The translations under genes were made by a program, and so were the position numbers. Below are positions 3,434-62,139 of a stretch of DNA of 64,000 bases, one piece after another (position 1 is the stretch's first letter; the number at the start of each line of letters is the position of its first letter). The stretch comes from Tachypleus tridentatus (Eukaryota; Arthropoda; Merostomata; Xiphosura; Limulidae): NCBI RefSeq assembly GCF_004210375.1, contig NW_027467782.1, forward strand, positions 31,785,276-31,849,275, written 5' to 3'. The notes below the pieces were generated by a model, which saw nothing but the letters and a program-made list of their open reading frames with translations, did not search any database and was not told the DNA's origin.

Positions 3434-3697
3434 AATAGGGCCCGGCATGGCCAGGTTGTGGAGACACTCGACTCGTAATTCGAGGGGAGCGATTTCAAAT
3501 CCCCTTCACACCAAACATGCTCGCCTTTTCAGACATGGGGCGTTATAATGTGACGGTTTATTCCACTATTCGTTGGTGAAAGAGTTGGTGGTGGGTGGTG
3601 ATGACTAGTTGACTTCCATTTAGTCTTACACTGCTAAATTAGGAACGGTTAGCGCAGATAGCTTTCATGTGGCTTTGCGCGAAATTAAAAAAAAAAA
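3434..3697 (+). mobile_element. tRNA-headed SINE (family 1, subtype B)
   Basis: Nearly full length. It has the head GCCCGGCATGGCCAGG, an anticodon-like loop CTCGTAA, a B-box-like segment, the linker 'AAACATGCTCGCC', the body 'GGTGATGACTAG', and a 3' end TGGCTTTGCGCGAAATT followed by an A-run. A 9-bp repeat CTACTTTTT at 3425-3433 and 3698-3706 is a plausible imperfect TSD. Confidence 0.88.
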
Positions 3698-3966
3698 CTA
3701 CTTTTTGATTTATACCTCAAATTGATGTGATAGAAAAGTTTGTAGTCTGAAGAATAAAACCATACATGCGATAATACATATTTGCTATTAAAAACTAACT
3801 TAGAATAAACCTGAATCTAGTTTTAAACTATTCGAGCTAAACGCTTCATAACTCGTACATTCTATGAAACTTATTACTTCTTACGAAGGTTGGTAACATT
3901 ATTCTGTCTTTCATTATTTTCTTCTCTTATAATAGCTTTTACACTCAGCGATATAATATTTACAAA

Positions 3967-4037
3967 TCAGGGTTCGATTCCCTTGGTGGACTCAGCAGAT
4001 AGCCCGATGTGGCTTTGCTATAAGGTAACACACACAC
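3967..4037 (+). mobile_element. SINE family 2, 5'-truncated, with 12-bp TSD
   Basis: This is a second SINE family: a tRNA-like 'GGGTTCGATTCCC' B-box followed by 'GACTCAGCAGATAGCCCGAT', then GTGGCTTTGCTATAAG and a CA-rich tail. It is flanked by a perfect direct repeat AATATTTACAAA at 3955-3966 and 4038-4049. The tRNA head upstream of the B-box is missing. Confidence 0.85.
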
Positions 4038-5106: not shown

Positions 5107-5825
5107 AATCTAGCTGAGTATCCACGAGCGCAAATGACGTCGGATTCTAAACATTTATATTAGATACACACAAAATAGGCCCTCCATCTTTGTGCAAATT
5201 GTATTAAATAGGCTATGTTGATATTGAATTATAACAAATACGTTTGTTTTGGAAATACTTTGATATAATAAAATGTATTCATTGGGCATTTAATGCCCTG
5301 AGGTTTTCTGGTGCTTGACTCTCAAACTGAAACGCTATGTCAATCAATCAAAACATGCTATCAGCTTTGGTTTAGAAGCAAAATTATGGTCAACTCCTGT
5401 CATTAGTCGGTAGGTAGCCTGTGAGTTGACCATAAGCATAAAACAGTTTGTTTTAACATTTGTAATTTTTACATTTGTTGAAAGACAAAAGTTCAATAGT
5501 TTATTTATTATTCCAGCATTACCTCAAGAGGAGAAATCCAATAAATGTTTATATATACTGTAAAAGTTCATTTGTTAATATTTTGTAAGTACTATAACAA
5601 ATGTTATGAAAATATTAAAACTGTACAGTGCTTATCAAACAAAAAATAAATAATACATACTCGGCGATGGATTAATCCAAAAGAAAGAGAGAAACTTTTA
5701 GGCTAATTTTAGGTCTAATTTACCCTTCAAGCAAATAATATTATTAACTTTTGAAACACACAAACTACCCCACAGTGTTTACGTTTTATCGAACTTTTCT
5801 CACATAACGTTAAGGTTAAGGAAAT
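5107..5825. other. No recognisable feature
   Basis: AT-rich unique-looking sequence with no long ORF, splice-site pair or repeat that I could recognise. Confidence 0.5.
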
Positions 5826-5950
5826 GTGGGTTTTCATTTAGCAAAACCACTTGCGGCTATCTGTTAATTCTACCAAGTTGAATCGAACCCATGATTGTAG
5901 CGTTAAAATCTGTAGACTTATCTCTGTACCTTGAAGCGAGAGACTGATGG
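5826..5950 (-). mobile_element. SINE family 2, degraded
   Basis: On the reverse strand a decayed B-box (GGGTTCGATTC) is followed by a CAGATAGCC-like element and GGTTTTGCTAAA, in the same order as in the copies at 17476 and 62006. Confidence 0.55.
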
Positions 5951-11078: not shown

Positions 11079-11578
11079 NNNNNNNNNNNNNNNNNNNNNN
11101 NNNNNNNNNNNNNNNNNNNNNNNNNNNNNNNNNNNNNNNNNNNNNNNNNNNNNNNNNNNNNNNNNNNNNNNNNNNNNNNNNNNNNNNNNNNNNNNNNNNN
11201 NNNNNNNNNNNNNNNNNNNNNNNNNNNNNNNNNNNNNNNNNNNNNNNNNNNNNNNNNNNNNNNNNNNNNNNNNNNNNNNNNNNNNNNNNNNNNNNNNNNN
11301 NNNNNNNNNNNNNNNNNNNNNNNNNNNNNNNNNNNNNNNNNNNNNNNNNNNNNNNNNNNNNNNNNNNNNNNNNNNNNNNNNNNNNNNNNNNNNNNNNNNN
11401 NNNNNNNNNNNNNNNNNNNNNNNNNNNNNNNNNNNNNNNNNNNNNNNNNNNNNNNNNNNNNNNNNNNNNNNNNNNNNNNNNNNNNNNNNNNNNNNNNNNN
11501 NNNNNNNNNNNNNNNNNNNNNNNNNNNNNNNNNNNNNNNNNNNNNNNNNNNNNNNNNNNNNNNNNNNNNNNNNNNNNN
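11079..11578. other. Assembly gap (500 N)
   Basis: Exactly 500 unknown bases, a conventional placeholder size, so the real distance is not known. Long translated frames spanning it are artefacts. Confidence 0.99.
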
Positions 11579-13311: not shown

Positions 13312-13588
13312 GGCCCGGCATGGCCAAGCGCGTTAAGGCGTGCGACTCATAATCCGAGGGTCGCGGGTTCACGCTCACGTCGCGCCAAACATGCTCGCCC
13401 TCCCAGCCGTGGGGACGTAAAAATTGTGTGGTCAATCCCACTATTCGTTGGTAAAAGAATACCCCAAGAGTTGGCGGTGGGTGGTGATGACTAGCTGCCT
13501 TCCCTCTAGTCTTACACTGCTAAATTAGGGACGGCTAGCACAGATAGCCCTCGAGTAGCTTTGTGCGAAATTCCAAAAAACAAACAAA
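13312..13588 (+). mobile_element. SINE family 1 (subtype A), full length
   Basis: One of the best copies. Head GGCCCGGCATGGCCAAGCG at 13312; anticodon-like loop in CGACTCATAATCCGAGGGTC; B-box-like GGTTCACGC; linker AAACATGCTCGCCCTCCCAG; body TAGTCTTACACTGCTAAATT; 3' hairpin AGCACAGATAGCCCTCGAGT, then AGCTTTGTGCGAAATTCC and an A-rich CAAACAAAC tail. CTCTATTTAAAA before it and CTCTACGTAAAA after it look like an imperfect TSD. It inserted next to the hammerhead-bearing end of a PLE. Confidence 0.93.
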
Positions 13589-13599
13589 CCTCTACGTAA

Positions 13600-14045
13600 A
13601 ATATTTTCTCAACCCGAACAAGCCGTTTTTACATGTATATTTTTCTCTACAAGTGGGTTTTCTCGACATCACTGAAAAATGAAACGTTACCTAGTTGTAT
13701 ACAATCTTTTCCGAACATGTTGATAATAATGATATTGTTTCAATTTACATGTAATATTATTCATAACTCTGTAAAAAAAAAACTGTTTAATTGATATATG
13801 CAATAAGGTGAAATCATAATTTGAAACTGTTTTAAGCTCATGAATACAAAAAACAACAACAAAAGAAGTAGTAAAACCATCAGTAAAAAGTGGTTGACAT
13901 TTTTATCTTGTTCTCCAACTAGAAAAATAAAACAACTCGATATGATTATACATGTCCCTGTGTCAGTATTGGTAATACATACTTTCAACTGTTTCTAGGA
14001 ATACCAGTTCATATGATAATACACGTACAAACTGTATTGTTTTTT
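13600..14045. other. No recognisable feature
   Basis: AT-rich sequence with no supported gene. Confidence 0.5.
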
Positions 14046-14053
14046 AGCATGGC

Positions 14054-14425
14054 TTGTTTGTTTGTTTTTGGAATTTCGCACAAAGCTACTCGAGGGCTAT
14101 CTGTGCTAGCCATCCCTAATATAGCAGTGTAAGATTAGACGGAAGGCAGCTAGTCATCACTACCCACCACCAACTCTTGAACTACTCTTTTACCAACGAA
14201 TAGTGGGATTGACTGTAACATTATAACGCTCCCACGGTTAGGAGGGTGAGCATGTTTGGCGCGACGCGGGCACGAACCCGCGACCCTCGGATTACGAGTC
14301 GCACGCCTTACGCGCTTGGCCACGCCGGGCCTGAAAGGGAAGGCATGTTTGTTGTACTTGGGATTCGAACCCACGACCCTCGGATTACGACTCCATTACT
14401 GTAACCACCTGGCCATGCCGGGCTC
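14054..14425 (-). mobile_element. Double-headed SINE (family 1) with 8-bp TSD
   Basis: On the minus strand a subtype-B tRNA-like head (14332-14424: GCCCGGCATGGCCAGGTGG, B-box GGTTCGAATCCC) is followed directly by a complete subtype-A SINE (14054-14331). AGCATGGC flanks the whole unit at 14046-14053 and 14426-14433. A single pair of direct repeats around both parts suggests that the dimer inserted as one molecule. Confidence 0.85.
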
Positions 14426-15331: not shown

Positions 15332-15425
15332 CTGCATAATAAGATGTTTCTCATACAGATTAAACTTTCACTGAAATCCATCAAACGTTAATAAAAGTTT
15401 TAATTTCTAATGATATTTTAAACGT

Positions 15426-15682
15426 TTGTTTGATTTCGAATTTCGCGCAAAGCTACTCGAGGGCTATCTGTGCAAGCTGTTCCTAATTTAGAAGTGTAAG
15501 ACTAAAGGGAAGGCAGCAAACTCTTAAACTACTCTTTTACCAACGAATAGTGGGATTGATCGTCACATTATAACGCCCTCGCGGCTGAAAGGGCGAGCAT
15601 GTTCGGTGCGACCAGAATTCGAACCCGTGACAATCGGTTTACGAGTCGAACGCCTTAACGCGCTTGGCCATGCCGGGCCAAA
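15426..15682 (-). mobile_element. SINE family 1 in an intron, perfect 17-bp TSD
   Basis: Flanked by AATGATATTTTAAACGT at 15409-15425 and 15683-15699. The minus strand reads from a GGCCCGGCATGGCCAAGCG head to the hairpin and a GAAATTCG end. About 20 bases around the 'GGTGATGACTAGC' body are deleted. The perfect TSD suggests a fairly recent insertion between the two receptor exons. Confidence 0.93.
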
Positions 15683-17399: not shown

Positions 17400-18160
17400 A
17401 CACACAAACATAACATTCCACTTCTATAAAATTCTAGAGAGTGACAATCATTATTATATTATTAACAAGCGTAATGCCACCCCCTAGTACAGCGATATGT
17501 CTTCGGATTTACAACGCAAAATCACGGATTCGATTCCCCGCGGTGGGCTCAGCAGATAGCCCGCGTGGCTTTGCTATAAGAAAACACACACAAGCGTAAT
17601 ATTTTCGACCTGTACATTTTTATGGTGTAGTGAAACAATAATTATTATTTTATCGACAGACGTTTCATAATTCTTCAGAAAACTGGGTGATGTAATAATC
17701 TGTATTATATTATTTTATTCTTTTACAACATGCAACTGGATGCCAAACGTTATTCTCTTTGATAAGTGCATTATTGTTCTATATAATTTTATGATGTTAA
17801 CAACCTTTGTCATATTTTCCTTTTGTACAGTTGTAAGGTATGACGTTGTTTATTATCTTATCGTCAAAATTAACATTGTTCTTTGGAATAATTGTACGGT
17901 ATAACAATCATTATTATGTTATTAGAAAGTGTAACATTGTCGTATAATTGTATGGTGGTATAATCCTTATTATCTTATTGAGAAGTGAAACATTAACCTT
18001 ATATATATATATATATATAATTGCATGGTGCAATAATATTAACTTATCATGTAAAACAATCTGTTATATTCTTGACAACTGAAACATTGTCCTTCTATAA
18101 AATCGCATTGTGTAATGATCTTTATTATTTCATCGAAAAGTGCAATTACGTCCTCATGTT
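17400..18160. repeat. Decayed tandem repeat, about 60-bp unit
   Basis: Imperfect units share 'GTGTAACATTGTCCTTCTAT', then AATTGTATGGTGTAATAATC and ATTATTATCTTATCGA. The best-preserved units start near 17872, 17931, 17989 and 18083. A family 2 SINE sits inside the array. Confidence 0.7.
17476..17589 (+). mobile_element. SINE family 2, near full length, 11-bp TSD
   Basis: It reads from a tRNA-like head (GTACAGCGATATGTCTTCGG, ATTTACAACG, B-box GGATTCGATTCCCC) through GGGCTCAGCAGATAGCCCG and GTGGCTTTGCTATAAG to a CA-rich tail. ACAAGCGTAAT repeats perfectly at 17465-17475 and 17590-17600. Confidence 0.9.
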
Positions 18161-28589: not shown

Positions 28590-30035
28590 AACAACTCAAG
28601 CCCAAAATAAACCAATACAAAGGAACACTTTTATACCTATATTAATAAATATAATCAAACATCTAAGTACGCCCTCTACATTCCTACACTCAGTTACACA
28701 ACCCCCTTCAAACATGTGGTCAGCTATCGGTCAGTTACCTCTTTCATTCTTTCATAAACCAAATCAACACTAAAAACAACAGGGACAAAACTATCTGCCA
28801 CAACAAAAACAAGAGAAAGTAAGATGTAAACAACAGAAAATACACCAACACGACAAACCGTTGACTAACCTCATAATTAACAAAAACTACCGACAGTTAA
28901 ATACAGACGAGATACATCTACTTAACAAAGGACTGAACTTCGCAATAGCACCTAGGTACATTCCAACGTTAGAAATTAAAACATGTTTAGAAGACCTATC
29001 CAGGAGACTTGTGATACTTTCCACAGAAAACAACCAGCAGAAAAAAGACAACTTCGACAATTTTACTGACATCCAACAGCCAAACTTCCCAGAAAAAATT
29101 TATATTTTCCAGAAACATCTAAAAACAACATCTTAAACGATTTTTTCAAAGAATTTTCTTACAAAACCATCTACATAATTTCACAAAACAGAAAGTTAAA
29201 AAACAATCCTACAAAAAGAGACATTAATTCCATTAAAACCTAAAACAAGGCAAAAATATTAAAATTTTAAAAGCAGATAAAGAAAGCGCTATAATCATAA
29301 TGAACACAAATGAATACATCCAAAAAATGAAGAACATTCTGTCAGACACAAACAAATTTAAACCAATAAAACAAATCCAACAGACACACGAAACGCTTGT
29401 TTGTTTGTTTTTTGGAATTTCGCACAAAGCAACTCGAGGGCTATCTGTGCTAGCCGACCCTAATTTAGCAGTGTAAGACTAGAGGGAAGGCAGCTAGTCA
29501 TCACCACCCACCGCCAACTCTTGGGCTACTCTTTTACCAACGAATAGTGGGATTGCCCGTAACATTATAACGCTTCCACGGCTGGAAGGGTGAGCATGTT
29601 TTGGCGCAACTCGGGCGCGAACCCGCGACCCTCAGATTACGAAGCGCACGCCTTAACGCGCTAGGCCATGCCAGACCCCACACGAAACGCAACTAAACAA
29701 AATACTACTAAAAATAAAAAAAAAAACCAACAAAATTTCAAAAACACTTTATTCTTACCTACGTAAGACCGACTCACACACACCACAAATATACGACATC
29801 CCCAAACCTCATAAACCAGATTGTCCATTATGCCCACATATGAATCGTTTAATTACAATCTTGGTAAATACATAGCTTGAGAATTCTCCAAATATGTAAA
29901 AAACTACACTGACAAACAAGCAGAAAAATGGAGAACAGATTAAAAGAACATAAAAAGTCACCTTCACACGTTTTCGAACACTGCAAAGCAAATAAACACA
30001 ACATAACCATAGAAAAGACCCAAATACTAAATATA
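28590..30035 (+). pseudogene. Penelope-like element with internal deletion, split by a SINE
   Basis: Starts with a terminal segment (28590-28745) that closely matches the 3' end of the PLE at 13070-13250. An N-terminal ORF part follows, from 28861: NLIINKNYRQLNTDEIHLLN, then KGLNFAIAPRYIP (the PLE 'LL.KGLNFA..P' box). A shifted frame gives LKADKESAIIIMNTNEYIQK (the 'KADKG..VVM' box). After the SINE the RT start YSYLRKTDSHTPQIYDIPKP HKP (29750-29825) is visible. The RT core is deleted, and the sequence jumps to the GIY-YIG remnant (QTSRKMENRLKEHKKSPS, VFEHCKANKHNITIEKTQIL) at 29905-30030. A 3'-type segment upstream of the ORF is the tandem/pseudo-LTR layout known for PLEs. The hammerhead core is absent at the place where it would be expected, near 28745. 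Confidence 0.82.
29396..29678 (-). mobile_element. SINE family 1 (subtype A), full length, perfect 11-bp TSD
   Basis: CACACGAAACG repeats at 29385-29395 and 29679-29689. The minus strand has a TCTGGCATGGCCTAGCGCG head, an intact body, the hairpin AGCACAGATAGCCCTCGAGT and a GAAATTCC end with AAACAAACAAAC. It inserted into the RT N-terminal region of the PLE. Confidence 0.95.
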
Positions 30036-31994: not shown

Positions 31995-32269
31995 CTTGTT
32001 GGTTTGTTTGTTTGTTTGTTTTAATTTCGCGCAAAGCTAAATGAGGGCTATCTGTGCTAGCCGTCCATAATTTAGCAGTGTAAGACCAGAGTCATCATCA
32101 CCCACCGCAAAGTTTTGGGCTACTCTTTTACCAACGAATAGTGGGATTTACCGTCACTTTATAACGCCCCACGGCTGAAATGGCAAGCATGTTTGGTGTG
32201 ACCGGGATTCAAACCCGCGACCCTCAGAGTACGAGTCGAACGCCTTAATCCACCTGACCATTCCGGGGC
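31995..32269 (-). mobile_element. SINE family 1 (subtype B), 10-bp TSD
   Basis: TTTACATGAG repeats at 31985-31994 and 32270-32279. The minus strand reads from a GCCCCGGAATGGTCAGGTGG head to the hairpin and GCGCGAAATT end with an AAACAAAC tail. Confidence 0.93.
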
Positions 32270-32553
32270 TTTACATGAGATAAAATCCACCTAGTGGTAG
32301 AACCTACATATTTCTCCATTTATAACATTTACTACTGAATGTGAACAATAGTTGAAGGATCAGGCAGTAATTTTTAGGTGAGCATGCAACAACTTTTAGG
32401 TGACAGATAAAAACATTTTCCAGTTATGTTTCGCCTTATTTGAACTCTGAGTTGCAACAACGGTTATATCAACAATTGTATTGTAATCTGTGATGCATGC
32501 AGTTTTCATTCGTAAATTTTTAAGTGAACAAGAAACGAACACCTTTATATATA

Positions 32554-33650
32554 CGCTGCTGGCCAAAATCTTAAGCTCAATGAACATAAAGAAAAATATG
32601 CAATTTTCATTGATAGATTCAACCATTTATTTGAGTAGAGCTTTGAAAGATGAAAATAAGAAAAGGGAAAATAAAAATAAAAAACTTTTTCAGCAATTAA
32701 TATACAAAATGTGAACACTATGAAATTACCCTAAATACTAGCTGGTCTAAAGTTTAAAGCAATACTGAAACGAAGCGTTAATCGGTAAACACGTAACGAA
32801 ATTTAGATATTTGTGTTCAAGCATTAGTGTTGTCAACATCTCCCACTGACACCTCCTGTGTTACATTGGGTAAAAACATGGCAAAGGTTAAAACGTTGAC
32901 AGTGTTTGAACGTGGCAGAATTGTCGAGCTGCAAAAGCAGGTCTCTCTCAACGTACCATCACTGGTGAGATTGGGCATAGTAAAAATGCTGCAAATTTCT
33001 CAAAAGACCCTGAGGGATACGGAACGAGAATTTCAAGTGTTCGGCCCAAGAAAATTTCGCTGGCGTTGAGCAGGAGGATTCGACGGGTTGTCAGGCAAGA
33101 AACTAGCTGATCATCGAACCAGAGTAAGGCCCTTACACACGCAGAATGTAGCTCAAGAACAATAAGTGTTTTTTTTTTTTATAGCAAAGCCACCTCGGGC
33201 TATTTGCTGAAACCACCGAGGGAAATCGAACCCCTGATTTTAGCGTTGTCAATAACAATAAGACGGCATCTACAAGAGAAAGGCTTTAAAAACCATAAAC
33301 GTCTTAAAAGGCCACGCCTCCTTCTACACCACGAAACAGCTTGGTTAAACTTTGCTGAGAATCACCAAATATGAGACGTGGAAAAGTGGAAGAAGATTTT
33401 GTTCTATGATAAGAAAAAATTTAACCTTGATGGTCCAGATGGCTTCCAACGTTACTGGCACGATAAGGACATGCCACCGGAGACATTTTCTACACGACAC
33501 AGTGGAGGAGGTTCCATCATGATCTGGGATTGTTTCTCCTTCCATGGAACAGTGGAGCTTCAAGTTATTCAGGGCGTCAAACAGCAGCTGGCTACATTGG
33601 CATATTGGAGAGAGCATCCTTATTGACTGAAGGTCTCACTTGTGTGGAAA
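32554..33650 (+). pseudogene. Tc1/mariner-type transposon with decayed transposase, right end lost
   Basis: The left end 'ACGCTGCTGGCCAAAATCTT' preceded by TA fits Tc3-type TIRs. Transposase text: MAKVKTLTVFERGRIVELQK (helix-turn-helix start), then a gap with stops, KRPRLLLHH-like text, and from 33378 [20 protein letters not shown] (catalytic block with E/D changed to K/D), [40 protein letters not shown] and VIQG. The final DDE segment and right TIR are missing; a SINE head begins there. A family 2 SINE interrupts it at 33167. Confidence 0.85.
33167..33253 (-). mobile_element. SINE family 2 inside the Tc1-like element, 9-bp TSD
   Basis: AACAATAAG repeats at 33158-33166 and 33254-33262. The minus strand has the B-box GGGGTTCGATTTCCC, TTTCAGCAAATAGCCCGAGG and TGGCTTTGCTATAAA. 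Confidence 0.88.
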
Positions 33651-36600: not shown

Positions 36601-37013
36601 TTTGAGGATGTAACTGAGAGGGTTGATGAAAGAAGAATTTTGAATTTGGTTCACTTGATTTTCAGAAAGCATTTGATAAGGTACCTCGTAAAAGACTTGT
36701 TACAAAAATTAAGTCTGTGGATGTGAGGAAAATGTTATTAAGTTGGATAGAAAACTATCATGAGTGTAGAAAGCACAGAATAGTAATAAGTAGCTTCAGG
36801 TCTGACTGTGTGATAGTTACAACTGGTGTGCTTCTGGGCTCTGTGTTGGGTCCTCTGCTGTTTATGACTGGTATTAATGATATGGACTCTGGAATGACTA
36901 ATAAAAATTTACAGATAACTTTAAGATTTTTGGGTTGGGTAACTGTACCAAAGATGCTGCAGACTTACAGAAAGATAATTTGATGCATTGAGTCATAGCA
37001 TGACAGATAATGT

Positions 37014-45528: not shown

Positions 45529-46343
45529 ATGGATACCCCTCAAATAAAAAAAATGAACATGCATGACAGCATAGAGAAAAATCCAACTACTGGAAAACGA
45601 CCACATATTGATGATCTGTATGGTCAAACTCACAACTTGGATCTGTCCTGCAATTTTAATTATACATTCTTCTACTGGAAAGCCCTTAGGACAGATGTCT
45701 CCATTTTTTATTCAGAAGGGTTTAGAGGGACTTGCTGACTCTCTTAAATCAGTAAAAAATTTATGGTTTGGGGACATTTTAGTGGAAACAGCTTCATGAC
45801 AACATTTCAAACTCCTTGAAATCGAAGGCCTTTGGAGATATACCCATTGAGGTTACTCCTCATTCTACTTTGAATTCTTCCAGAGGAGTTATAGCTGAGA
45901 GGGATTTAAAGACCATTCCAGAGTCTGAGATCCTCTCAGGTTTCACCAGCCAAGGTGTTACAGCTGCTCATCGAATTTTTACTCATACATACAGGATTAT
46001 GGAGCCGACAGATGTTCTAACATTAACATTTACAACATCACGTCCTCCTACCAAAATGAAGGCAGGATATCTGAATTGTAAGGTACAGCCTTATATCCCT
46101 AACCCTGTTAGATATTTTCATTTTCATCGATTTGGTCATTTGAAAACATCTTGCCATGGTTCCTTGACATGTGCCCTTTGTGCTGGTAAAGACCATGATG
46201 CTTTTGAATGCCAACAAGAACTACATTGTATTAACTGTAATGGTCCACATCCTTCCAATTTCACTTCTTGTCCTAAATGGGTGGAAGAGAAAGAAATACA
46301 ACGTCTGAAGGCAGTTAACAATATTACTTATCCAGAGGCTTAG
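45529..46343 (+). pseudogene. ORF1 (gag-like, CCHC zinc knuckles) of the I-type LINE
   Basis: The start reads MDTPQIKKMNMHDSIEKN; after a frameshift near 45660 it reads SPFFIQKGLEGLADSLKSVK and GDILVETAS. After another near 45797 the best-preserved stretch begins (45816-46343): GDIPIEVTPHSTLNSSRGVI, KMKAGYLNCKVQPYIPNPVR, YFHFHRFGHLKTSCHG (first knuckle, with C..C changed to F..H), CALCAGKDHDAFEC (second) and CINCNGPHPSNFTSCPKW (third), then the conserved EEKEIQRLKAVNNITYPEA. This arrangement is the usual nucleic-acid-binding ORF1 of I and Jockey clade LINEs. Confidence 0.85.
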
Positions 46344-48106
46344 AAATTACTCTTCACAATTCCATCTTGGACTTATGTTGCTGCAGTCCATTCCACTACT
46401 ACAGCAGGAGTCCAGACAGACTTTTCCATGTCTCCTACAGAATCCTTAATAGCACACCTTAATCTAGTACCCTACAAAATCAACAAAGTTAATGAATTAG
46501 TATCTACTTCTATATCTGTCCATTCCACATCTTCCAGTCATTGCCAAACTTCACCTTGTTCAAGTCCAGGTGTTACATTTGGTTTTCCTCTCTTGACACC
46601 CCATAAATTAAAAAACACATGTGTTCATGTCCTCAATCACTGGAACTTGTGTCTACAAACTCTGATCTGCCTACTCGATCCAGAGCAGGATCATTAGAGG
46701 GTGACCGACCAACACCCAGTAAAGAAAAAAGCATGGTAGCAAGCAGAAGGTCTCTGTGGCATATTCTCCTCCAAAATAAATAAAAATGGCCTTGCTAATC
46801 CAATGGAACTGTTGAGGTTTTCCACCAAATGTGAATGACATCAAGGATTTGATTGACTTTTATTATCCCAAATGTCTTTCTTTACAGGAAACATTTTTAA
46901 AACCTACTAATACAGTCACAATTTGACAATACTCCTTTTACCGAAATAACAGGTCATATGTAGGACAAAGACATGAAGTAGCACTGCTGGTTGATCAACA
47001 TGTGTTCACCCGGTCCTTGTTTTGAAGACGCCCTTGTAGGCTGTAGCCATCCATATCTCCTTAGGTCATATTATCACTGTTTGCTTTCTGTAACTTACTC
47101 CTGGAATACATTATCATCCCTCAGACCTTGATGCCTTAATTGAGTTCAGTTGTAGCACACAGAATCCCCTCTACAGTTTCTGTGTTCACTGCTGAATTAT
47201 ATGCCATTTCTCTTGCCCTGAATCATATTGAAACTATACAATACATGAATTGTACAATCTATACTGATTCACTCAGAACATGAGATATATTGAGCAGCAG
47301 CTGCAGAATGCCCTCAATTGTTCACTGAAGTGAACCACAGCAAACGACTTTACCTTCTCTCTCTCTAAAACCGTTTGCATGCACTTTTGCTGTCAATGGG
47401 GTATTCACCCTGATCCTCAACTCCATATAGGTGAAGTTGTGCTGCCTGTGGTCTCTGAGACTAAGTTCTCGGGGCTTATCTTTGACCGTAAGCTGACTTT
47501 TATACTACACATCAAGCAGCTATGGGTCAAATGTACAAGAGCACTGAACATCCTCTGTGTCCTCTCTACCACCACTGGGGAAGCTGATTGACGTTCTATG
47601 CAAAAGATATATCGTGCTCTTATTCGATCGAAACTCAACCAGGGATCACTGGTCTATGGCTCTACCAGACCATCGGCCTTAATGGTGCTAGACTCTATTC
47701 ATCATCAAGGACTTCAGCTCTGCACTGGCGGTTTCTGCACTTCCCCAGTTCAGAGCTTATACATAGTCTCATGAACCTTCTCTGCACCTCTGCCATTTGC
47801 AGTTGTCTTTACTGTATGCTTTGAAACTTCATTCCTTACCAAAGCATCCCACCTGGGGTTGTGTTTTCATTCCTTGATGGGCCATACTTTTTTCAGACCA
47901 AACAGTCTGCCATTGCTCTTTTTGGTCTTCGTATCAAGGTGCAGTTGGATAAATTGGGTCTGTCCTTGGATAACATTGCTGTATCTGCTGGTCAGCCCAT
48001 CCCACCATGGCTTCTTGCAGTCCCCAATTGTGAACTATCTTAAAGTCATCTGAGAAAAGTAGACAAACCTGATTGGAAATACTCTCTGCTATTTGCTCAA
48101 CACCTT

Positions 48107-48946: not shown

Positions 48947-49350
48947 GTTTTTTAATTTATACTTTACACCTTTTTAATGTGGCTCCCTTTTAAAGATCAC
49001 AGTTCATTTAGTTCAATTTGAAATTAGAAACTGACCATAACATTAAGTAACTCGAAACCAGGACTGGAAAGGCCAACTTCAGGTGACTGACGGTGGTTTT
49101 TGTAGTTACCTGTTCGTCTTCCTGGCGAGTCCATTACAATTTGAATTACTGTAGTTTTTCTCTTGATGTTGCAGGTTAGATCTAAACATTGGTTTTATGC
49201 TATTTATTTATTTATTTTTTTAACTTTGTTTTGTTTTACCTTAATTTCCTTTTATGAATTTTACTGAATTTACTTTTACCTTTTACTGGACATTTGGTGC
49301 AGGTAGCCTCTCTGCTTTGTGCCATAAAACACTAAATCAACCAAGCAACC

Positions 49351-50253
49351 ATTCAGCTGTCTATTGGCCCTGACATCATTCCATGTTAGTTACTATCCTA
49401 TTCTTATCAATATGCAAAACAAACTGGCCCATCTCTCCCTATCATCTATCTCTGTGCAGTTTTTTTGGATACCAGCTCATGTTGGTATTCATGGGAATGA
49501 GCTAGCTGACAGTGGCAAAGTCCATCTGCTTTGGCTCTGTCACCACCATACCTGTTCCATACATGGACTATCGTCCAGTTATCAAAACCCAACTGTACAC
49601 CAATTGTCAGTCAACCTGGAGTGAGCAATGAAATAATAAGCTTTTTGAAATCAAGTCTTTTTTTAGCTTTTTGGCCATCCTGTTTCTGTAAAGATCGAAG
49701 GGAGGAAGTTGTTTTCACTAGGCTATGCATAGGTCACAGTTTTATAACTTACCACTTCCTTTTATCTGGTACTGATGCACCAATGTGTGGTCTGTGTGGC
49801 ACTCAGGTCACAGACATACATATTTTATCATCATGCCGTTGTTACAACCAAGAACGATGATGCCATTTCCAACATATTTTTAAGGTAGGTTTGCCCTTGA
49901 CATTAGCCAATGTCATATTTGATACTGACTGCCTCACTCATGTTTTTACATTTTTAAGAACCATTGGCATTTTTAACTTAATTTGAGGTTTTTCTTGGAC
50001 TATATACTGTTTTAGCATGATATCTTTTACACATTTTAATTTTATTCTGACCTGAACCCAGGACTGGAAAGGCCAACTTCAGGTGACTGACAGCAAGTTT
50101 GAACTTCATGCTTCAGTCTTACTGGCAGGTCTTAATTTTACACATTTTATGTATTTTTACCTTAATTTCCATATACCACTGTAGTATTCTACATCTTGTT
50201 TGGCACAGATAGCCTAGTAGCTTCATGCCAATAAACATGAAATACCTACCTAC
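49351..50253 (+). mobile_element. Second, 5'-truncated copy of the same I-type LINE
   Basis: Starts within the RNase H region and shows FFWIPAHVGIHGNELADSGK (49458), the C-terminal zinc segment MCGLCGTQVTDIHILSSCRC (49780), the shared 3'UTR (GGACTGGAAAGGCCAACTTC at 50062) and the end GGCACAGATAGCCTAGTAGC, TTCATGCC, AATAAAC and ACCTACCTAC. It directly abuts the 3' tail of the first copy. The HVGI.GNELAD box is better kept here than in the first copy. Confidence 0.85.
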
Positions 50254-62005: not shown

Positions 62006-62139
62006 GTGTGTGTTGTGTGTGTATTTTCTTATTGCAAAGCCACATTGGGCTATCTGCTGAGTCCACGGAGGGGGATCGAACCCCTGATTTTAGCATTGTA
62101 AATCTGAAGACATACAGCTGTACATTGCGGGGGGCAACA
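62006..62139 (-). mobile_element. SINE family 2, near full length
   Basis: The minus strand reads CCCCGCAATGTACAGCTGTA, TGTCTTCAGATTTACAATGC, B-box GGGGTTCGATCCCCC, GGACTCAGCAGATAGCCCAA, TGTGGCTTTGCAATAAG and a CA-rich tail. AAAAGAT at 61999-62005 and 62140-62146 is a likely short TSD. It is inserted beside the minisatellite. Confidence 0.88.

Follow-up and report, generated by a model that had tools for sequence, protein, structure and literature searches.

Some LINEs share their 3' tails with SINEs. In L2-clade LINEs, the ORF2 protein binds a stem-loop in the tail in a loop-specific manner, and elements deprived of this stem-loop no longer retrotranspose (PMC4176376). Table 1 of PMC3747384 lists the pair Gecko/I-74_AAe as well as SalL2, RSg-1, BovB_Pca and LINE1-1_ZM, each with at least two SINEs, and an I-clade LINE seemingly mobilises SINE3-1_TC of Tribolium, according to the relevant part of PMC7245038. 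Tail sharing, LINEs with multiple SINEs, and I-clade partners are all already on record in these two sources. Here, we analysed a window of 64,000 nucleotides from the horseshoe crab Tachypleus tridentatus, in which the same bulged hairpin is 3'-terminal in LINE and SINE copies alike. The hairpin recurs in two LINE subfamilies, in one locus of a third LINE lineage, and in three SINE families. Very probably it serves a stringent-type RNase-H LINE superfamily as its 3' recognition tail and has been taken over by at least three SINE families.

LINE and SINE copies and their 3' ends

The window lies on contig C19 (31785276-31849275) of an assembly of 2,167,478,450 bases in 205 contigs, and contains two adjoining LINE copies, A and B, together with copies of the families SINE1 and SINE2 (Table 1). 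The first-pass annotation had proposed that the LINE and both SINE families share one 3' terminal hairpin, which direct reading and genome counts confirm. Its positions for the two LINE tails are exact, whereas its SINE1 tail is one base off, and its SINE2 tail starts correctly and ends at 17575 rather than at 17577. Its count of two SINE families proved too low, since SINE3 (not to be confused with the SINE3 group of 5S rRNA-type SINEs) brings the number to at least three.

Table 1. Retroposon copies, terminal hairpins and junction elements in the window
Feature	Positions	Strand	Details
LINE copy A	47277..~49352	+	C-terminal part of ORF2, broken, including the RNase H region; 3' UTR; tail
LINE A junction element	49042..49144	+	three-way-junction RNA, 3' UTR; 34-nt core 49058-49091; model E 4.8e-25
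LINE A terminal bulged hairpin	49297..49323	+	GTGCAGGTAGCC..CTGCTTTGTGCC
LINE copy B	49350..50245	+	5'-truncated; L094, L060 and L049 alignments all begin at 49350
LINE B junction element	50042..50145	+	three-way-junction RNA, 3' UTR; 34-nt core 50058-50091; model E 6.7e-24
LINE B terminal bulged hairpin	50202..50229	+	GGCACAGATAGCC..GTAGCTTCATGCC
SINE1 copy	3439..3697	+	hairpin core 3656-3680; 9-nt flanking repeat CTACTTTTT
SINE1 copy	13312..13590	+	95% to consensus; hairpin 13537-13566
SINE1 copy	14056..14332	-	hairpin core 14078-14102
SINE1 copy	15424..15679	-	hairpin core 15445-15469; 17-nt flanking repeat ACGTTTAAAATATCATT
SINE1 copy	29399..29672	-	hairpin core 29422-29446; 12-nt flanking repeat GCGTTTCGTGTG
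SINE1 copy	32006..32272	-	hairpin core 32029-32053
SINE2 copy	3964..4034	+	hairpin core 3997-4020
SINE2 copy, diverged	5825..5929	-	hairpin core 5841-5862
SINE2 copy	17476..17590	+	hairpin 17551-17575; ACAAGCGTAAT on both flanks
SINE2 copy	33174..33253	-	hairpin core 33182-33205
SINE2 copy	62018..62136	-	hairpin core 62032-62055

The start given for LINE A is approximately where collinear similarity to the fetched copies begins; the bases just before it (47160-47276) match LINE sequence in an order that is not collinear, and gag-like frames at 45783-46343, judged by eye, may also be part of this copy. The first aligned base of LINE B meets the end of the LINE A tail repeat. Locus L052 likewise has two LINE tails, and with the start of LINE B in view it is possible that LINE tails are a favoured insertion site. 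Over 376 aligned bases of coding sequence, LINE A and LINE B share 73% identity. Among the fetched copies, the ten best matches of LINE A reach 81-84% identity to it, and the three best of LINE B 85-87%. Judged from these identities, they are two subfamilies. A third lineage with the hairpin is represented by one locus, L076; its protein and that of LINE A share 53-63% identity. Pfam RNase_H scored above cut-off in four of six open frames from LINE copies (best 2.6e-10), so the earlier description of an RNase-H-bearing LINE holds for the superfamily, the window copy by itself staying under the cut-off (E 0.03); the RT-like piece of the window LINE gave no Pfam match. Given its RNase H, the LINE is probably of I type. 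Elsewhere in the window, a reverse-transcriptase fragment (RVT_1, 36630-36983, E 1.8e-08) probably belongs to a different LINE type.

With a loose two-part hairpin pattern, the window returned 17 rows, whereas 20 order-3 Markov simulations averaged 2.5 (range 1 to 4). Sorted by eye, 13 of these are real tails (six SINE1, five SINE2, two LINE), and the remaining four are chance or overlapping matches. The exact core pattern AGATAGCC-N2-12-GCTTTG has 219,129 matches (109,969 + 109,160) across the 2.17 Gb assembly, and its reversed control 36 (17 + 19). With at most three mismatches, the assembly contains 6,501 LINE A, 660 LINE B, 132,640 SINE1, 26,616 SINE2 and 33,458 SINE3 tails, the three SINE families summing to 192,714; the reversed controls gave 0 for every family. 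Among the 100 core matches listed first on contig C1, which were sorted by matched letters and 40 of which had their flanks read, 17 have the LINE-type gap of 5 nt, 14 a gap of 7 nt (12 of them SINE2-like), 64 a gap of 8 nt (SINE1-like and a satellite) and five a gap of 9 nt (SINE3-like). The satellite, a tandem repeat of about 43 bp containing the SINE-tail hairpin (..GGACAGATAGCCCTCATGCAGCTTTGTGTGAAAC..), occurs at C1:204616-205065 (L070-L075) and C1:268806-269390 (L080-L087), and is apparently derived from a retroposon tail. The hairpin patterns had no matches in the viral and prokaryote contig collections, nor did SINE1 in the phage collection, so the comparison is confined to this assembly.

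The hairpin marks the true 3' end of the LINE, as opposed to an end lying elsewhere. Of 30 loci picked solely by an exact 34-nt motif about 100-600 nt upstream, 26 have a LINE A or LINE B tail (25 by the tail pattern, plus L037 with a tail equal to that of L036); of the other four, L044 and L056 have no hairpin, L041 ends partway through it, and L031 has lost part of it to an internal deletion. The LINE hairpin is followed on its 3' side by letters resembling ATAAAACACTAAATC or ATAAACATGAAATA and by a small number of AACC/AATC/TACC units, beyond which the sequence is unrelated from locus to locus. For SINE1, a repeat of at least 8 nt lies across the element in 26 of 46 full-length copies; three of these sit inside the tail repeat, leaving target-site duplications in 23 of 46, against 26 of 449 mismatched-pair controls, in a set that leans young because most copies come from loci chosen as best matches. 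These duplications sit directly after the tail repeat and thus support the SINE1 ends. In addition, a SINE1 copy in L022 with little beyond the tail is flanked, by eye, by TTGAATATT: its hairpin begins a few bases from one TTGAATATT, which recurs 3' of the tail. A SINE2 duplication was seen by eye in one copy (17476-17590). For LINE copies, flanking repeats of at least 9 nt were found in 11 of 34 cases and in 135 of 331 controls, no excess, in a test that is weak because many copies extend 5' past the fetched DNA.

The SINE families, at least three in number, have tRNA-like heads, and a tRNA gene search returned no genes. The central part of SINE1 presumably resembles the Nin-type conserved domain. 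Matches to SINE1 in the window are 76-96% identical to the SINE1 consensus, and because four of the thirteen reach 94-96%, the last SINE1 wave looks younger than LINE copies A and B; this comparison of sequence identities is rough and carries no dates, the LINE values being copy-to-copy and the SINE values copy-to-consensus. The inverted SINE1 pair at 13312-14332 is repeated at several places on C19 (L001-L007, the window being L003), where the query copy is matched at 98-100% identity, and is a recent segmental duplication. A run of 500 N at 11079-11578, an assembly gap or masked stretch, splits a SINE1 copy.

Fold of the hairpin and relations among the tails

Four parts make up the hairpin: a lower stem, an AU bulge on the 5' side, the inner stem AGC/GCT, and the loop. 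The lower stem reads GGCACA/TGTGCC in the LINE, GCACA/TGTGC in SINE1, AGCA/TGCT in SINE2 and AGCACA/TGTGCT in SINE3, and GGTGCA/TGCACC in the LINE copy at L076. The third stem pair of SINE1 is A-T in 36 of 65 copies and G-C in 18, and in the window copy at 3439-3697 G-C replaces A-T (GCGCA/TGCGC). With the C after AGC counted in the loop, the loop has 6 nt in all 31 LINE copies, 9 nt in 62 of 65 SINE1, 8 nt in 11 of 13 SINE2 and 10 nt in 11 of 12 SINE3 copies. The within-family hairpin counts, including that of the third SINE1 pair, leave out 21 loci, namely the segmental copies L001-L007 and the satellite arrays L070-L075 and L080-L087, and conservation of the core among the sampled copies is inflated because its letters belonged to the search pattern. 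The order, spacing and stem potential had been said to agree in the LINE and both window SINE families; for spacing this is only partly so, the loops having mostly 6, 8 and 9 nt. Since loops differ among the families, which all retain the bulge and the inner stem, we infer recognition of the hairpin by its bulge and inner stem, not by its loop.

Compensatory changes point to a stem-loop common to the LINE and SINE tails. In 31 hand-picked aligned sequences, 80.4% of cells are paired, compared with 74.9% after shuffling, and 25 cells show a double change, compared with 11.3; neither value was reached in 500 shuffles, and with one strand slid as a control only 28-50% of cells pair. This set comprises 30 of 36 sampled rows plus LINE B of the window, and of the six rows dropped two are identical to others, one is aberrant, and three (one LINE B, two SINE2) were removed by hand without strong reason. 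Restoring the dropped rows, the identical ones apart, leaves the outcome unchanged, with 80.8% of cells paired against 75.3% and 29 double-change cells against 14.9 over 35 distinct rows (0/500 shuffles for both). Counted by pair instead of by cell, double changes affect five pairs, a number that is ordinary in shuffles (122/500 for 31 rows, 223/500 for 35) because few pairs hold the signal, chiefly 3-34, 5-32 and 6-31 in the 31-row alignment, and the number of pair types is ordinary as well (296/500 and 349/500). RNAalifold recovered part of the lower stem (six pairs, two with double changes) and did not recover the inner stem. No covariation was found within LINE A (p 0.39), LINE B (p 1.0) or SINE2 (p 1.0) by itself; the separate value for SINE3 is unused because that set was mixed with SINE2 copies, which were re-sorted for the loop lengths.

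Folded as single sequences, the SINE tails show no clear gain over shuffles (SINE1, z -0.60; SINE2, z -1.19). Such unremarkable folds, and a common part of only about 25-30 nt, would suit a generic hairpin that arose by chance or convergence, an explanation that we regard as extremely improbable in view of the 219,129 core matches against 36 reversed, the covariation results and the tail shuffles given below. Moreover, the families have the sequence of the bulge and inner stem in common, beyond the needs of folding, and the hairpin is 3'-terminal in every one of them.

The tail consensus of each LINE was compared with that of each SINE family, using 2,000 dinucleotide shuffles per pair. No shuffle reached the scores of LINE B-SINE1 and LINE B-SINE3, and one reached that of LINE A-SINE1; for LINE B-SINE2, LINE A-SINE2 and LINE A-SINE3 the numbers are 10, 12 and 16. 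These results contradict a view of the consensus tails as aligning no better than chance. The tails of SINE1, SINE2 and SINE3 match one another with 0/2,000 shuffles each. SINE1 is therefore strongly linked to the LINE, as is SINE3 via LINE B; by itself SINE2 is linked less strongly, its tail being, by these alignment scores, firmly tied to those of SINE1 and SINE3. Overall, the SINE 3' ends are like the LINE 3' ends, with a modest match for SINE2 and also for the pair LINE A-SINE3. LINE and SINE do not have the same short terminal repeat, which is AACC/AATC in LINE A, TACC in LINE B, AAAC in SINE1 and SINE3, and AC in SINE2. A common terminal repeat is frequent in stringent LINE/SINE pairs, and is not strictly defining. 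Because the repeats differ, the SINEs may have as their exact partner a related LINE outside the sample. In addition, AATTCC follows the hairpin in SINE1 and SINE3 and in neither LINE consensus; the pattern of matches, together with AATTCC and AAAC in SINE1 and SINE3 only, points to a sister-LINE partner or to tail transfer between SINEs.

An unsampled sister lineage within this LINE superfamily would refine our main reading by making LINE A and LINE B cousins of the SINEs' actual partner. The terminal repeats and AATTCC fit such a lineage, and a more divergent hairpin-bearing LINE does exist (L076); however, by eye none with the longer, SINE-type loop appeared at the 40 loci read of the 100 listed, and the match of LINE B to SINE1 and to SINE3 is already one that no shuffle equals. 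We consider this quite possible, if somewhat short of probable. Transfer between SINEs would mean that one SINE alone obtained its tail from a LINE and that the others received it from that SINE through template switching or recombination. The SINE1-SINE3 score of 47 exceeds the LINE B scores of 41 (SINE1) and 36 (SINE3), and the SINE2-SINE3 match (score 44) runs into the heads, but the loops and stems of the three SINE families are not alike, and the enzyme would in any case come from a LINE; we are rather inclined to doubt this route. Under the preferred reading, a LINE recognition tail taken over by SINEs, the ORF2 protein would bind the terminal hairpin and start reverse transcription at the target (target-primed reverse transcription), and SINE RNAs ending in a like hairpin would be carried along and reverse-transcribed from their 3' ends. 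It is by analogy with the described systems that we infer such ORF2 binding and SINE mobilisation.

A three-way-junction RNA element in the LINE 3' UTR

Upstream of the hairpin, LINE A and LINE B have an identical 34-nt core within 3' UTRs that are otherwise barely alignable. The core has 9,659 matches in the whole genome with at most two mismatches, and its reversed control has none. An initial view of this 34-mer as plain conserved sequence gave way to a three-way junction after covariation and folding work. The junction unit measures about 95 nt and occurs in one to three copies per LINE 3' UTR. The model matches in the window are the two copies of Table 1, both of which are in the model that finds them. 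In 36 sources known beforehand to hold the core, the model identified 70 units, with one unit in 11 sources, two in 16 and three in seven, as well as four in L052 and two in the window, each of the latter two containing two LINE copies. Neighbouring cores are 143-170 nt apart in 19 of 31 cases.

The helices are P1 (nine pairs) plus CCAGGA/TCCTGG, P2 (CTGGAA/TTCAG) and P3 (GACTGAC/GTTAGTC). In 45 units hand-picked from 62 distinct ones, 90.8% of cells are paired against 87.5% after shuffling, with 62 double-change cells against 27.9 (0/500 shuffles for both), and versions with a slid strand pair in 24-45%. The rerun on all 70 model matches, 67 of them distinct and in an alignment fitted to the model, gave 92.0% against 88.7% and 86 double-change cells against 37.4 (again 0/500). 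Double changes occur in seven of the nine P1 pairs in the 45 units and in eight of nine in the 67 distinct matches; this signal was not made by the picking of loci, since both P1 strands lie outside the 34-nt picking motif. P2 and P3 are near-invariant, and their support comes from conservation and folding rather than covariation. RNAalifold recovered the core of the three helices (17 pairs). Folded as single sequences, the window copies show only a slight gain over shuffles (z about -1.9), and the minimum-energy structure of neither copy gives the full junction.

In 58 other SINE and hairpin loci, the junction model gave 10 matches, all in six LINE-type loci; of the eight LINE-type loci, L076 and L096 had none (L095 and L032 are one place), and no junction was found in the SINE loci searched with the model. 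Rfam 15 gave no match for the junction, and its 26-nt core had none in the viral contig collection. A tandem junction array was not found described in the literature searched, which is weak evidence of absence as many subscription papers lie outside it. If the SINEs are without the junction, junction RNA cannot be required for SINE mobility. This would allow a 3' UTR with two signals, in which the hairpin, read by stem and bulge, suffices for reverse transcription and the upstream junctions are LINE-only, an arrangement that we put forward tentatively and consider unlikely. Reading of the stem and bulge rather than the loop would let many SINEs copy the hairpin, and candidate functions for a LINE-only junction include nuclear export, translation or cis-preference. 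If this two-signal arrangement were true, the LINE would own a private RNA module by which its RNA is distinguished from the RNAs of its parasites. Kept across LINE subfamilies whose 3' UTRs barely align, the junction is a concrete candidate for a LINE-only RNA function.

Comparison with described LINE/SINE partnerships

The best reading of the horseshoe-crab elements is a stringent LINE/SINE partnership. Its mechanism is known, and there are precedents both for I-clade partners and for several SINEs on one LINE. The first-pass annotation had stressed the pairing of an I-type LINE with several SINEs at once; the pairing is supported, and both features have precedents in Table 1 of PMC3747384. 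The literature searched, including the relevant part of PMC7815833, yielded no account of these SINEs in a horseshoe crab, which is weak evidence of absence as many subscription papers lie outside that literature. The present case adds to the known partnerships an RNase-H-bearing (I-type) LINE with at least three SINE families.

The Gecko SINE of Aedes aegypti, with its I-74_AAe/MosquI-type LINEs, is similar in that a tRNA SINE has its 3' tail in common with an I-clade LINE in a protostome; it differs in being a single SINE family in Table 1 of PMC3747384, and the comparison made here is at the level of that description. SINE3-1_TC of Tribolium also has an I-clade partner, and the relevant part of PMC7245038 places it in the SINE3 group, which is unrelated to the horseshoe-crab SINE3 family. 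RSg-1 with SlmI, HpaI and OS-SINE1, and SalL2 with SmaI and FokI, are examples of one LINE tail with several SINE families, as here (PMC3747384, Table 1). Both are fish LINEs, unlike the present one. To our knowledge, neither is of the RNase-H I type. For the Nin-SINEs of Nematostella, the partners listed in PMC11121367 and PMC3747384 are L2 and CR1 LINEs and not an RNase-H LINE.

UnaL2/UnaSINE and ZfL2 resemble the horseshoe-crab elements in having a 3' stem-loop followed by short terminal repeats, and their stem-loops are recognised by ORF2, as described in the parts of PMC4176376 and PMC3747384 that treat them. In contrast to these systems, the terminal repeats of LINE and SINE differ here. 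The specificity of ZfL2 resides in the loop, whereas here the loops vary in length and sequence, and conservation lies in the bulge and the inner stem. Such differing LINE and SINE loops would contradict the loop-specific rule derived for L2-clade LINEs, and the SINE tails of the assembly are numerous enough for the recognition code to be learned by comparison.
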